Below the pieces are notes generated by a model, which saw nothing but the letters and a program-made list of their open reading frames with translations, made no database searches and was not told where the DNA came from. This document shows, piece by piece, positions 12,399 through 46,069 of a stretch of 47,319 nucleotides of DNA; the stretch's first letter is position 1; each line of letters begins with the position of its first letter. The translations under genes and the position numbers were made by a program. The stretch is from the NCBI GenBank assembly GCA_016218045.1, contig JACRFB010000021.1, positions 1 through 47,319 of the forward strand. Reading direction: 5' to 3'. This DNA comes from Ignavibacteriota bacterium (GTDB lineage Bacteria; Bacteroidota; Ignavibacteria; SZUA-365).

Positions 12399-12477
12399 AG
12401 TGTCTGGCGTGTTGTGGCGTGAATAATTCGCGAAGCGATCATACAGTATACGAACTCTGAACCGGATTTCCATCAGC

Positions 12478-12615
12478 GGGATAGCGGAAGAGCGGGACAG
12501 CGGGACAGCGGGAGAGCGGGACAGCGGGACAGCGGGAGAGAGGGACAGCGGGAGAGAGGGACAGCGGGAGAGAGGGACAGCGGGAGAGCGGGACAGCGGG
12601 AGAGCGGGACCTGTT
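12478..12615. repeat. octamer array (GGGACAGC / GGGAGAGC)
   Basis: About 17 consecutive 8-bp units alternate between GGGACAGC, GGGAGAGC and GGGAGAGA. The array sits in the divergent gap between the cytochrome cluster and the iron-sulfur flavoprotein gene. Related octamer tracts lie at 1-200, 2815-2860, 29315-29520 and 47181-47198. Confidence 0.9.
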
Positions 12616-29314: not shown

Positions 29315-29520
29315 CCGGACAGCGGGAGCGGGACAGCGGGACAGCGGGACAACGAAATGGTGTCTCGCTGAGCGGAGTCGAAGCGCGACGGGAGAGCGGG
29401 ACAGCGGGACAGCGGGAGAGCGGGACAGCGGGAGAGCGGGACAGCGAAATAGTGTCTCGCTGAGCGGAGTCGAAGCGCGACGGGACAGCGGGACAGCGGG
29501 ACAGCGGAACAGCGGGAGAG
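29315..29520. repeat. octamer array with two dispersed hairpin copies
   Basis: GGGACAGC/GGGAGAGC octamers enclose two copies of the hairpin element with the GGAG-type loop (29360-29389 and 29452-29481). The composite is nearly the same as the 68-bp repeat at 1-200. It separates the T9SS gene start at 29189 from the 102-bp repeats. No gene is visible from 29190 to 29809. Confidence 0.85.
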
Positions 29521-29809
29521 CGGCCGAAGGCCGCAGGAAAAAACCTCCGTTGCCTCCGTTCCTCCTGTGTGCTTTTTTCTACGCGCACCACCCTATCGTG
29601 CGACAGCGGGGTAGCGGGAGAGCGGCCGAAGGCCGCAGGAAAAAGCCTCCGTTTCCTCCGTTCCTCCTGTGTGCTTTTTTCTACGCGCACCACCCTATCG
29701 TGCGACAGCGGGGTAGCGGGAGAGCGGCCGAAGGCCGCAAGAAAAAACCTCCGTTTCCTCCGTTCCTCCTGTGTGCTTTTTTCTTTGCGCACCAGCCGCG
29801 CCCTGCGTC
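29521..29809. repeat. 102-bp tandem repeat, three units (family B, inverted)
   Basis: GGCCGAAGGCC recurs at 29522, 29624 and 29726, giving an exact 102-bp period. Each unit contains the perfect hairpin GCGGCC-GAA-GGCCGC, the pyrimidine block CTCCGTTTCCTCCGTTCCTC and a short octamer tract. The third unit is cut off at the 3' end of the PagL-like gene. One further copy, in the other orientation, lies at 2758-2859. Confidence 0.9.
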
Positions 29810-30543: not shown

Positions 30544-30936
30544 CACCATTCTCCTCGATTTCGCGAGTGAGAAAATTCATCAGCGTAGAAATCCATCCTT
30601 AGGTTCAAGAATCTAGTACAATGGGTAAGTGGAGAAATTCCGTATCCTGGATCCAATGATGTACACACGATTGTAAAAAAGAACAAAAAAATACTTGTTC
30701 TCGCCCGGTTGTGAGGAAATGCTCAGCTGATATTGCCAATGAGGCAAAAGAGTCAAGCGTGTACAATCAGCCGGGAAATACGGTATTATGCCGTGAAACA
30801 GGAACGATAATCGGTTTTCAAGCGCTAGAGGGGAGTACGGCTTGCGCCATTTCCCGGCAATCGAGCTCTGCACTGGATATTTCTCTTTTTTTCTTCTACA
30901 ACACAGATATCTAGCGTTTGTATACACTGTTCGCAA

Positions 30937-31997
30937 CCGACAAACAACAGTACCACAGGTCAGCACACCGCTCGAATCCGGCAACACACGATGCAAGATG
31001 TCGAAAGCGGTGTTCGAGTCGGACGCTCGGCATTCCCATCCGCATCGCACATCCACCAATTCCAATAACACACACTGCTATTGTAGGAAAATGCTCGTAC
31101 CGTCGGACGAACGGTAGTACCAGCCGGACAAATCGCTGCCTGACTCGCACAAAACACCACCCAAATCCGACAATACGAACACCCAAGCGCGGAAAACGGA
31201 GTCTGCGTCGGACGAACTGAGTCCCGCGCTGGATAACCAGCACCTTCACTCTGACGATACGCTCTTCGAAGTTCGTGAAACACTCTTCGCGGCCGTCAAA
31301 TGGATCTTCTAAGCCGGCAACCAACACCTTCACTCTGACGAAACGCTCTTCGAAGTTCGTGAAACACTCTTCGCGGTCGACAAACGGTAATTCTACGCCG
31401 ACAGCCGGCAGTTTCACTCTGACAAAACGCTCTTCGCAGCCCGTGAAACGTACTTCGCGGCTGACAAACGGTGCTTCCATTCCGCGAAAAAGGAGTTTGC
31501 AGCGGACAAAAAGTACTTCGCGAGTTCGGTGCCTATATGTGCAGGTTCGTTGCGAGTACTCTCACACGTGTTTCCGCACTTTGTGAGTTCTGTCACAGGA
31601 GTCTCAATTGTGGAACCGGTGTTTGTGACTTCGGTGCGCAGACTCTGCGACTTCGTTACAGGACCTGTAAACACCGCTTCCGTAGTCTGCGAGTTCGGCA
31701 CCATAGTGTACAAGGGCGTCACATACATTGTGACTTCGGTAACACTACTCCGCGACTTTGTCACCGGTCTCTGCGACTTTGTTACCGTACTCTGCGAGTT
31801 CGCTTCAGTACATATTTGTGGTGTTCGCGTGGTGTGAGTTCAGTCACCGGGTTCTGCAACTTCGGTTACAACACTCTGCGAGTTCGTTCCGGTCATGAAA
31901 AATCGTGTCACCGATCTCTTCAAGTTCGTTCACATACTCTCAATCGTGTTTCCGCACTTCGCAAGTTCGGTCACAAGAGTTGTATCGCGTGTCACCA
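30937..31997. repeat. degenerate 21-bp-period array, about 50 units in two inverted halves
   Basis: From 30937 to 31524 the DNA can be cut into 28 consecutive 21-mers of the type TGACAAAACGCTCTTCGCAGC, for example at 31336, 31357, 31420, 31441 and 31462. From 31525 to about 31990 similar units read the other way, of the type TTYGTYACnGnnCTCTGCGAG, with lengths of 18-22 averaging near 21. Read outward from 31524, both halves begin each unit with TTYGTY. Several short open frames inside (heptad peptides such as FVxxEER and FVTxLCD) exist on both strands, which shows that the DNA period, not one protein, is the conserved feature. Composition is more AT-rich than the genes around it. 30503-30936 shows no gene or repeat I can name. 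Confidence 0.8.
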
Positions 31998-32055
31998 TAC
32001 TATGTTTTTCACATTCCGGCAACAAAAAATAATGGAGTACTTGCTCCTGTACCGC

Positions 32056-32084: not shown

Positions 32085-32759
32085 ATGCAGCTTCCATTCA
32101 CCCCGGAACAGTTTTTCGCCGTTTTTACGGCCTATAACGATACAATCTGGCCGATGCAGCTCGTGTTGTACGCGCTGGCAGTCGTGGCCCTGGGGGTGGC
32201 GCTGCGGGGTGGCGGGCGCAGGCAGTTTCTCGTTCCGCTGTGCCTCGGGCTGTTGTGGCTGTGGTCGGGCCTGGTGTATCACATCACCTTCTTTGCGCCG
32301 GTCAACCCCGCGGCGTCTCTGTTCGGAGGCGCATTCATCGCCGAGGGACTCCTACTCCTGTACGTCGCCTGGCGGAGGCCCGGAAGCTACAGTTTCTCGC
32401 TCAACCCATACTCCCTCGGAGGAGCGGCGCTTGTGCTCTACGCGCTGCTTTTGTATCCGCTGTTGGGGACATTGGCAGGACACCAATTTCCCGCCGCGCC
32501 CAGCTTCGGCGCGCCCTGTCCGTTGGTCATTTTCACCTTCGGTATTCTCCTGCTCGGTCGAGACATTCCAAAAATCTTGCTCATCATCCCCGCGCTGTGG
32601 TCACTCATCGGTTTCACAGCGGCACTCACGATGGGTGTGTACGAGGACGTGGGACTGCTGGTCGCGGGCGTGCTGGGCACGACGCTCGTACTACGAGCGT
32701 CGCGGCGTCATGGCGTTGCGGCAGCAGGCATGGGAGCCCGACACCGACCCGGTCGCTGA
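32085..32759 (+). CDS. DUF6064-like integral membrane protein
   Basis: The 224-residue protein starts LPFTPEQFFAVFTAYNDTIWP and has about six or seven hydrophobic helices (VLYALAVVALGVAL, FLVPLCLGLLWLWSGLVYHI, LFGGAFIAEGLLLLYVA, LVLYALLLYPLLG, VIFTFGILLLG, ILLIIPALWSLIGF, VGLLVAGVLGTTLVL). I associate this pattern with the uncharacterised DUF6064 family; the function is unknown. The ATG at 32085 follows a Bacteroidota-type -7 box. It is isolated between the 21-bp array and a strong AT hairpin. Confidence 0.7.
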   Translation: MQLPFTPEQFFAVFTAYNDTIWPMQLVLYALAVVALGVALRGGGRRQFLVPLCLGLLWLWSGLVYHITFFAPVNPAASLFGGAFIAEGLLLLYVAWRRPGSYSFSLNPYSLGGAALVLYALLLYPLLGTLAGHQFPAAPSFGAPCPLVIFTFGILLLGRDIPKILLIIPALWSLIGFTAALTMGVYEDVGLLVAGVLGTTLVLRASRRHGVAAAGMGARHRPGR

Positions 32760-34203: not shown

Positions 34204-34232
34204 GTGTCACCCCGAGCTTGTCGAGGGGCGAC
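34204..34232. repeat. dispersed hairpin element, TTG-loop type
   Basis: GTC-A-CCCC pairs with GGGG-C-GAC around GAGCTTGTCGA. Relative to other copies the stem has changed from CGCT/AGCG to CCCC/GGGG on both sides. It introduces the repeat at 34249. Confidence 0.7.
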
Positions 34233-34248
34233 GGAACGTGTCACAAAA

Positions 34249-34605
34249 CACAGGAGGAACGGAGGAAACGGAGGTTTTATAAACGCGCGTTGCCGCCATG
34301 CTGTAGCGCCACGTGCCGTTCCCGCGGGCTCGGCCGCTGTAGGAACGTGTTACGTGGATACGTGTCACCACAAAGCTGTGTCAACCCGATCCGCCGCTGG
34401 CGGACGAGGGGCGACGGAACGTGTCACAAAGCACAGGAGGAACGGAGGAAGCGGAGGTTTTATAAACGCGCGTTGCCGCCATGCTGTAGCGCCATGTGCC
34501 GTTCCCGCGGGCTCGGCCGCTGTAGGAACGTGTTACGTGGATACGTGTCACCGCAAAGCTGTGTCAACCCGATCCGCCGCTGGCGGACGAGGGGCGACGG
34601 AACGG
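34249..34605. repeat. 183-bp tandem repeat, two units (family A)
   Basis: CACAGGAGGAACGGAGGAA occurs at 34249 and 34432, giving a period of 183 bp. Each unit runs through GGTTTTATAAACGCGCGTTG, a GC-rich palindromic part and GTTACGTGGATACGTGTCAC, and ends in a larger hairpin (34378-34415 and 34561-34598) with the inner stem TCCGCC-GCT-GGCGGA. Inverted, shorter relatives lie at 37105-37700. The short frames inside are repetitive and not convincing genes. The gap 34176-34709 holds nothing else. Confidence 0.9.
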
Positions 34606-34709: not shown

Positions 34710-35051
34710 ATGACAAATCCTCAGGCACTGGCACTCGTCAGATTTATACACACCGCGATATATATCGTGATGGTGGCGGCCATCGTTGTTCTGCTTGTGG
34801 CGGGCATCACGGGCTACAGCGGCATCTGGCTGTGGATCTCGCTTGGGCTGCTGGCGGGGGAGTCGGTTGTCTTCCTCGGCAACGGCAGGACATGTCCGCT
34901 TACCACCATGGCCGTCCGATACGGCGCCGAGAAGGGGTATGCGTTTGACACTTTCCTCCCCGAGCACTGGACGAGGTATACGTTTCGTTTCTTCGGCACG
35001 TTGATGGTGATTGGGTTGGTGTTGTTGGGGGTGAGGTTGGTAGCTGGGTAG
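34710..35051 (+). CDS. small membrane protein of unknown function
   Basis: The 113-residue protein has three likely membrane helices: IYIVMVAAIVVLLVAGITG, LWISLGLLAGESVVFLG and FFGTLMVIGLVLLGVRLV. Between the second and third is a conserved-looking loop, NGRTCPLTTMAVRYGAEKGY followed by FDTFLPEHW. I recognise this loop as typical of small conserved membrane proteins but can give no function. Starts at 34665 or 34695 are possible; 34710 was chosen because it precedes the first helix most naturally. Its last codons and stop lie in a TGGTAG heptamer array. Confidence 0.6.
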   Translation: MTNPQALALVRFIHTAIYIVMVAAIVVLLVAGITGYSGIWLWISLGLLAGESVVFLGNGRTCPLTTMAVRYGAEKGYAFDTFLPEHWTRYTFRFFGTLMVIGLVLLGVRLVAG

Positions 35052-35080
35052 GTGGTAGGTGGTAGATGGTAGTTGGTAGA
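35037..35080. repeat. heptamer array TGGTAG(N)
   Basis: Units TTGGTAG, CTGGGTAG, GTGGTAG, GTGGTAG, ATGGTAG and TTGGTAG follow one another, mostly with a 7-bp period. The array begins inside the last codons of the membrane protein gene and supplies its TAG stop (35049-35051). Confidence 0.75.
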
Positions 35081-37104: not shown

Positions 37105-37700
37105 GTTCCTCCTGTGCTGTGACACGGTGACACGTAACACGTATCCACGTAACACGTACCGACAGCGCGGCCCGCGGGAACGGCACGTGGTGCAACGACA
37201 GAGCGGCAACACGCGTTTATAAAACCTCCGTTTCCTCCGTTCCTCCTGTGCTGTGACACAGTGACACAGTGACACAGTGACACGTAACACGTATCCACGT
37301 AACACGTACCTACAGCGCGGCCCGCGGGAACGGCACGTGGCGCAACGGCACATCGGCAACACGCGTTTATAAAACCTCCGTTTCCTCCGTTCCTCCTGTG
37401 CTGTGACACAGTGACACAGTGACACGTAACACGTATCCACGTAACACGTACCGACAGCGCGGCCCGCGGGAACGGCACGTGGCGTAACGGCAGAGAGGCA
37501 ACACGTGTTTATAAAACCTCCGTTTCCTCCGTTCCTCCTGTGCTTTTGTGATACGGTGACACGTAACACGTATCCACGTAACACGTACCGACAGCGCGGC
37601 CCGCGGGAACGGCACGTGGCGTAACGGCAGAGAGGCAACACGCGTTTATAAAACCTCCGTTTCCTCCGTTCCTCCTGTGCTTTGTGACACGGTGACACAG
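37105..37700. repeat. family A tandem repeats, inverted, about five units with variable octamer spacers
   Basis: TTCCTCCTGTG recurs at 37106, 37240, 37390, 37532 and 37669, with intervals of 134, 150, 142 and 137 bp. The differences of 8 and 16 bp come from one to three extra copies of the octamer GTGACACA. Each unit otherwise matches the reverse complement of the repeat at 34249. No credible gene lies between 37049 and 37767. Confidence 0.9.
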
Positions 37701-37767
37701 TGACACGTTTTGTTCCAACCGCAATGAGCAGTATTTTCCACAATTACGGTAAACGGCATCGATCCTC

Positions 37768-42667: not shown

Positions 42668-43095
42668 GAGTTAGGATCTGGTAGAAGGAGATAGGAGATA
42701 GTAGTGTCGAAGGCTGAATGTTGAACACAGTCCCTAGTCCCCAGTTCCCAGTTCCAACTACCCAGTCCCAAGTTCCCAGTCCCGTCGCGCTTCGACAAGC
42801 TCAGCGTGACACAGCGTGGCTGTTCCGCTCCCTAGTTCCCAGTTCCAATTACCCAGTTCCCAGTTCCAATTACACAGTTCCCAGTTCCTATTACCCAGTT
42901 CCCAGTCCCCAGTCCCGTCGCGCTTCGACAAGCTCAGCGTGACAATGCTCCCTTCCAGACACTCCTATACCCTAACTCCTATCTCCTAGATCCTTCTACC
43001 AGATCCTAACTCCTATCTCCTAGATCCTTCTACCAGATCCTAACTCCTATCTCCTAGATCCTTCTACCAGATCCGAACTCCTATCTCCCAGCTCC
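42653..43095. repeat. nested heptamer arrays between nanE and yqeY
   Basis: Left arm: GGAGCTA, GGATCTA, GGAGTTA, GGATCTG, GTAGAAG and following. Centre (about 42730-42910): CCCAGTT, CCAATTA and CCCAGTC heptamers, interrupted by two hairpin elements of the TTG-loop type (42784-42812 and 42917-42944, both in reverse orientation). Right arm (about 42970-43085): three 34-bp units made of TCCTAAC, TCCTATC, TCCTAGA, TCCTTCT and ACCAGA. The right arm is the reverse complement of the left one; 23 bp at 42667-42689 match 42991-43013 and 43025-43047 exactly in inverted form. No gene is present. Confidence 0.9.
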
Positions 43096-43099
43096 TCCA

Positions 43100-45936: not shown

Positions 45937-45964
45937 GTGCACGGTGTTGATATTGATCCTGTGA

Positions 45965-46069
45965 GGAGACAGGAGATAGGAGACTGGAGACTGGAGACAG
46001 GAGAAAGGAGACTGGAGACAGGAGATAGGAGACTGGAGACTGGAGACAGGAGATAGGAGATAGGAGACA
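45965..46069. repeat. perfect heptamer array GGAGAC(A/T)/GGAGATA, 15 units
   Basis: Fifteen uninterrupted 7-mers (GGAGACA, GGAGATA, GGAGACT, GGAGACT, GGAGACA, GGAGAAA and so on) fill 105 bp between mutS2 and the next gene. Four reverse-complement units of the same type are found inside the next gene at 46314-46341. The rest of the gap (46070-46178) shows nothing clear. Confidence 0.95.

Follow-up and report, generated by a model that had tools for sequence, protein, structure and literature searches.

Intergenic 21-bp tandem arrays in an Ignavibacteriota genome form a dispersed family whose two-turn pitch may be under selection

Does a degenerate kilobase of tandem repeats between two divergent genes of an Ignavibacteriota bacterium keep its regular spacing because something reads it, or is the spacing a by-product of how such repeats arise? 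The repeats occupy positions ~30902-32009 (bounds by profile scan) of the 47,319-nucleotide stretch of DNA that we analysed, hereafter the window. Autocorrelation of positions 30937-31997 gave an identity of 0.401 at lag 21 versus 0.251 ± 0.013 for shuffled sequences (z = 11.5), with further peaks at lags 42, 63, 84, 105 and 126 and a signal in both halves (z = 10.3 in the left, 5.2 in the right). Thus the description in an earlier note, made from the letters alone, of about 50 units that stay in a 21-bp phase while their sequence drifts survives the autocorrelation check which that note had proposed, and a Viterbi periodic-profile fit resolves the array into ~28 left and ~23 right units of 21 bp each. 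The phase is held from end to end: coherence is the same at early and late lags, and the motif positions of the right arm deviate by no more than ±1-2 bp from a 21-bp grid along ~480 bp. In neutral simulations such coherence was lost when indels amounted to 3% of substitutions, and was usually partly lost at 1%. A random-walk argument based on the alternating ±1 shifts was set aside because it rests on few independent events. The constant helical spacing of conserved sites observed here is necessary, albeit not sufficient, for a phased binding array. On the other hand, the array has no 7-bp component (lag-7 identity 0.239 over 30937-31997, and 0.15-0.30 across the other 21-bp arrays measured), so that an origin from heptamer repeats, suggested in the same note by the relation 21 = 3 × 7, is rejected.

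The window copy is a composite of two different 21-bp tandem arrays, joined at a conserved core and ending in a conserved right-hand tail. The left arm (30902-31500, minus strand, ~28 units of TTTGTCCGCGTCGAAGTGCGG; unit stack from the Viterbi fit and profile scan) contains an 84-bp (4 × 21) higher-order repeat at 31235-31471 (TRF). The two unit families meet in an A-tract-bearing core (31445-31553, delimited by BLAST and four-copy alignment), which shows 78% identity to a second copy of the element (BLAST match C22:5156-5264) and is partially preserved in two others (C18 and C5). In the right arm (31524-31988, plus strand, unit stack and profile scan), ~23 units of TGCRAGTTCGGTCACAGTCTT each combine a conserved 15-bp motif with a variable 6-bp spacer. 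The right end itself, GTGTCACCATACTATGTTTTT (31989-32009, plus strand), is common to all four copies in their alignment. Outside the array lie the two divergent genes assigned by Pfam, a PagL-like gene (PF09411; 29810-30580, minus strand) and a DUF6064 gene (32085-32759, plus strand), each without a homologue in 15 relatives. A promoter consensus scan returned 3 sites versus 1.4 expected, which is uninformative.

The left half had been read in the earlier note as the reverse complement of the right, with a polarity switch at 31524. An abrupt change of unit family does occur at ~31500-31530, but the reverse-complement relation is ruled out. The right-arm profile scores near the shuffle level on the left arm in either orientation, the left and right unit profiles are no more similar than column-permuted controls (p = 0.45), and when the left arm was reverse-complemented and aligned to the right by Smith-Waterman, p was 0.18 for the window copy and 0.49 for the C22 copy. 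Only the base composition reverses (A+C 0.60 in the left arm, 0.45 in the right), and the impression of polarity probably came from there. The reverse-complemented left arm also weakly resembles another array type of the genome (p = 0.007), with a lesser resemblance for the right arm (p = 0.05-0.07); the orientations of both arms relative to this type would fit an inversion, if only weakly.

A genome-wide search for the unit, another check proposed beforehand, showed the window element to be one of four copies (C21, the window; C22; C18; C5). Both arms, the core and the right end are present at C22 (BLAST, arm sequence models), and the core, right arm and right end at C18 (BLAST, arm models, alignment); the C5 copy is nearly erased and was found by a de novo period scan. 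Within the genome the left unit (arm model R2) occurs only at the window and C22, and the right unit (R1) at C21, C18 and C22; bases beyond GTGTCACCATACTATGTTTTT are also common to C22 and C5. Across 500 aligned bases the C21 and C18 copies are 64% identical, a closer match than that between adjacent units of the array (0.35 at lag 21). This indicates that the array was already degenerate at the time of copying. No plasmid matched the array. The sequence adjoining the C18 copy is probably an insertion-sequence end: it occurs in nearly identical form at L009:5480-5619 and at the contig ends C1, C4, C11, C19, C33 and C42, and breaks the assembly. A separate dispersed repeat, of the GTCACCCCGAGCTTGTCGAGGCACGACGG type, is common to the right flank of C22 and the left flanks of two further arrays (C52a and C63).

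These further arrays belong to a wider class. At least six intergenic 21-bp arrays with other units were found (C40, two in C52, C49, C63, C13), making at least 10 in the genome with the four-copy family, in a period scan that covered 1.60 Mb, or one third of the genome, partly picked because of matches; 5 of the 10 (C40, both C52 arrays, C13, C5) lie in stretches not picked for such matches. Two candidates were left out of the class, C10 for its coding repeats and C22c for its heptamer repeats. C40, C52a, C49 and C63 have in common the unit GCAATGNCGTTTTCACG plus spacer, the C13 unit is related to that of C63, and the remaining links between array types are weak. What the arrays do have in common is an architecture of conserved stretches and a variable spacer at an exact 21-bp pitch, with higher-order repeats of 63, 84 and 126 bp. 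As tandem units in the 10-100 bp range, present at several loci outside genes, they are intergenic minisatellites. One array, at 98% identity at lag 21, runs into a contig end (L160:19800-20000).

The window contains other tandem repeats as well: 8-bp-unit arrays of the GGACAGCG type (12474-12610, 29317-29523, 2813-2859), heptamer arrays (42728-43096, 45964-46069, 35038-35079), with a 21-bp higher-order period at 42834-42906, and long units of 183, 142 and 102 bp (34222-34604, 37119-37708, 29500-29794, respectively) that share a segment, CCTCCGTTTCCTCC. A segment related to the latter lies beside the C13 array (L146:5730-5760).

Beyond this genome the class appears to be scarce. Two relatives, sampled at 0.4 Mb each (0.8 Mb together), yielded no 21-bp array where the unbiased density predicts ~2.7, an absence that on its own reaches only p ~0.07. 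Searches with the individual units turned up no other array in 60 relatives and 395 members of the phylum, the weak matches in relatives (L018, L019) being coding coiled coils; neither L204 nor L206, both from relatives, has an array, and none of 55 pattern matches in viral contigs ranked as a 21-bp array. An intergenic 21-bp array in Flavobacterium sp. A45 (L052:3600-3870) has a unit similar to that of the window right arm (p = 0.010), a resemblance partly selected by the motif search from which it came; its pN/pS pattern has no coding look.

To account for these features we propose, from the sequences, that arrays would gain length in integer multiples of 21 bp by slippage or unequal recombination, as the 63-, 84- and 126-bp higher-order repeats indicate, that substitutions would wear the units down, and that copies would spread to other intergenic sites. 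Less certainly, selection acting on the DNA itself may hold both the motif and its precise spacing of two helical turns, and a putative DNA-binding protein, of a nucleoid, silencing or transposase type, might occupy one motif per 21 bp along one face of the helix. In the C21-C18 comparison, mismatch is 0.32 in the 15-bp motif and 0.45 in the 6-bp spacer (p = 0.066 for heterogeneity across the 21 positions). Among four of the more homogeneous arrays, variable sites cluster within the unit in two, C52a at p = 0.006 and C13 at p = 0.0095, and show no clear clustering in the other two, C40 and C49. The earlier idea that 21 bp, as two helical turns, places all sites on one side of the DNA is in line with a motif and pitch held at the DNA level. 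Its companion, a bent segment, is not specifically supported: predicted curvature of the left arm (wedge model) exceeds that of shuffles (z = 3.4) but not that of column-permuted sequences keeping the period (z = 1.5), and neither the right arm nor the paralogues are curved. A kept pitch would be needed for phased DNA-binding sites but does not prove them, since the turnover of repeats may likewise remove units that fall out of phase. In addition, unit sequence differs so widely between arrays that a single protein would need relaxed specificity, and, the family not being found in relatives, no cross-species conservation supports a function. Overall, we assign a probability of about 0.45 to the whole reading, namely a dispersed non-coding minisatellite family with motif and pitch under selection, most simply for phased protein binding.

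The serious rival is neutral satellite-like DNA that originates by slippage, spreads by repeat-mediated recombination and decays, its period and motif being without function, and we regard it as a real possibility, though a tentative one. In its favour, the copies are of graded age, C52b being ~98% homogeneous and C5 nearly erased, their higher-order repeats recall eukaryotic satellites, their distribution is lineage-specific, and the same genome carries many 7-bp and 8-bp arrays (eleven of period 7 and eight of period 8 in 1.6 Mb). Less easily explained by neutrality alone are the periods themselves, as the strong long-unit arrays in the 1.6 Mb have period 21 or its multiples (other arrays have 7, 8, 15, 18 and 24), as well as the unequal divergence of motif and spacer and the survival of the phase across ~36% divergence between paralogues. 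At the opposite extreme from neutrality, the arrays might form a lineage-specific chromatin-like system, in which a putative protein would read the fixed two-turn pitch and a loose motif in diverged intergenic arrays. This is rather unlikely; if true, the bound arrays would anchor the nucleoid or act as insulators or silencers at intergenic boundaries.

Unlike either of these, a reading as the decayed remnant of a coiled-coil gene would place the constraint in a protein. The right-arm motif reads on the minus strand as heptads of the form xxVTELA, the right-arm unit resembles those of real coiled-coil genes (selected, in that they were found via this unit), a 224-aa ORF crosses both arms in C22, and the minus-strand frame has a pN/pS of 0.79, among the lowest. 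However, each copy has the heptads in two different frames, and unit-versus-unit pN/pS over six frames ranges from 0.78 to 1.37 in right arms and from 0.79 to 1.06 in left arms, other frames being equal (0.78), whereas coiled-coil controls in their true frame gave 0.32 and 0.60 (L059 and L019). The C21-C18 mismatches fall 52/61/65 on the three codon positions (p = 0.47), i.e. with no codon-position signal between paralogues, and the peptides encoded by this genome's other arrays of related architecture are unrelated. The scarcity of stops in all six frames is due to the repeat. The two control genes do have the same 21-bp period, and L059 has a similar DNA unit, but each has one open frame with low pN/pS and the array has neither. 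With no Pfam hit above cut-off and no Rfam match for the array, it is very probably a non-coding, intergenic minisatellite, in agreement with the earlier doubt about a protein-level explanation, and a coiled-coil remnant is improbable.

As a strict MITE-like transposable element, the array would be mobilised in trans by a transposase recognising terminal inverted repeats; with BrickBuilt of Porphyromonas gingivalis (PMC4596501) it has in common dispersed copies and a conserved tail. This reading is decidedly improbable: beside the left ends of C21 and C22 there is no inverted copy of GTGTCACCATACTATGTTTTT, and these two left ends show no likeness to each other. Action as RNA, whether a structured transcript or a repeat RNA, agrees with the dyads within units and the position between divergent genes but is very improbable, given ordinary predicted folding on both strands of both arms (z from -0.45 to -1.83; +1.5 and +0.2 for the C22 right arm) and the lack of an Rfam match.

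The preferred reading, phased protein binding along a dispersed minisatellite, invites comparison with known systems, although the open-access literature yielded nothing relevant on 21-bp intergenic arrays in the phylum. Plasmid iteron arrays and ParR-type centromeres consist of direct repeats of ~17-22 bp facing one side of the helix, a one-face spacing similar to that of the array. They have few, well-conserved repeats beside a rep or par gene, unlike the ~50 degenerate units and several arrays per genome described here, and none of the genes examined beside the array was recognised as rep or par. Cyanobacterial short tandemly repeated repetitive sequences form one group of heptamer repeats. 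Another, the TAACTGA heptamer direct repeats, is found in Beggiatoaceae, Cyanobacteria and some Bacteroidetes (PMC4679880). Like the array, heptamer repeats are intergenic direct repeats, some of them in long arrays and with Bacteroidetes among their carriers, but their period is 7, of which the 21-bp arrays have no detectable component.

Of the elements described so far, BrickBuilt comes nearest: a 23-nt minisatellite of P. gingivalis that lies between genes in 19 copies, has a leader and a tail, and ends in inverted repeats (PMC4596501). Its leader and tail have bidirectional promoter activity. Both consist of short tandem units without spacers between them, lie between genes in many copies per genome, carry a conserved tail and have a narrow host range. 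They differ in unit length (23 nt versus 21 bp) and in their ends, BrickBuilt having a leader and a tail with terminal inverted repeats, the array a tail but neither inverted ends nor a shared left end. The element described here, moreover, joins two unit families, and its period is common to several unit types. Most bacterial intergenic minisatellites have been treated as typing markers. Here, a single genome offers arrays of differing sequence and constant 21-bp period, in a series from homogeneous to almost erased, which lets one ask whether it is the period, rather than the sequence, that is selected.
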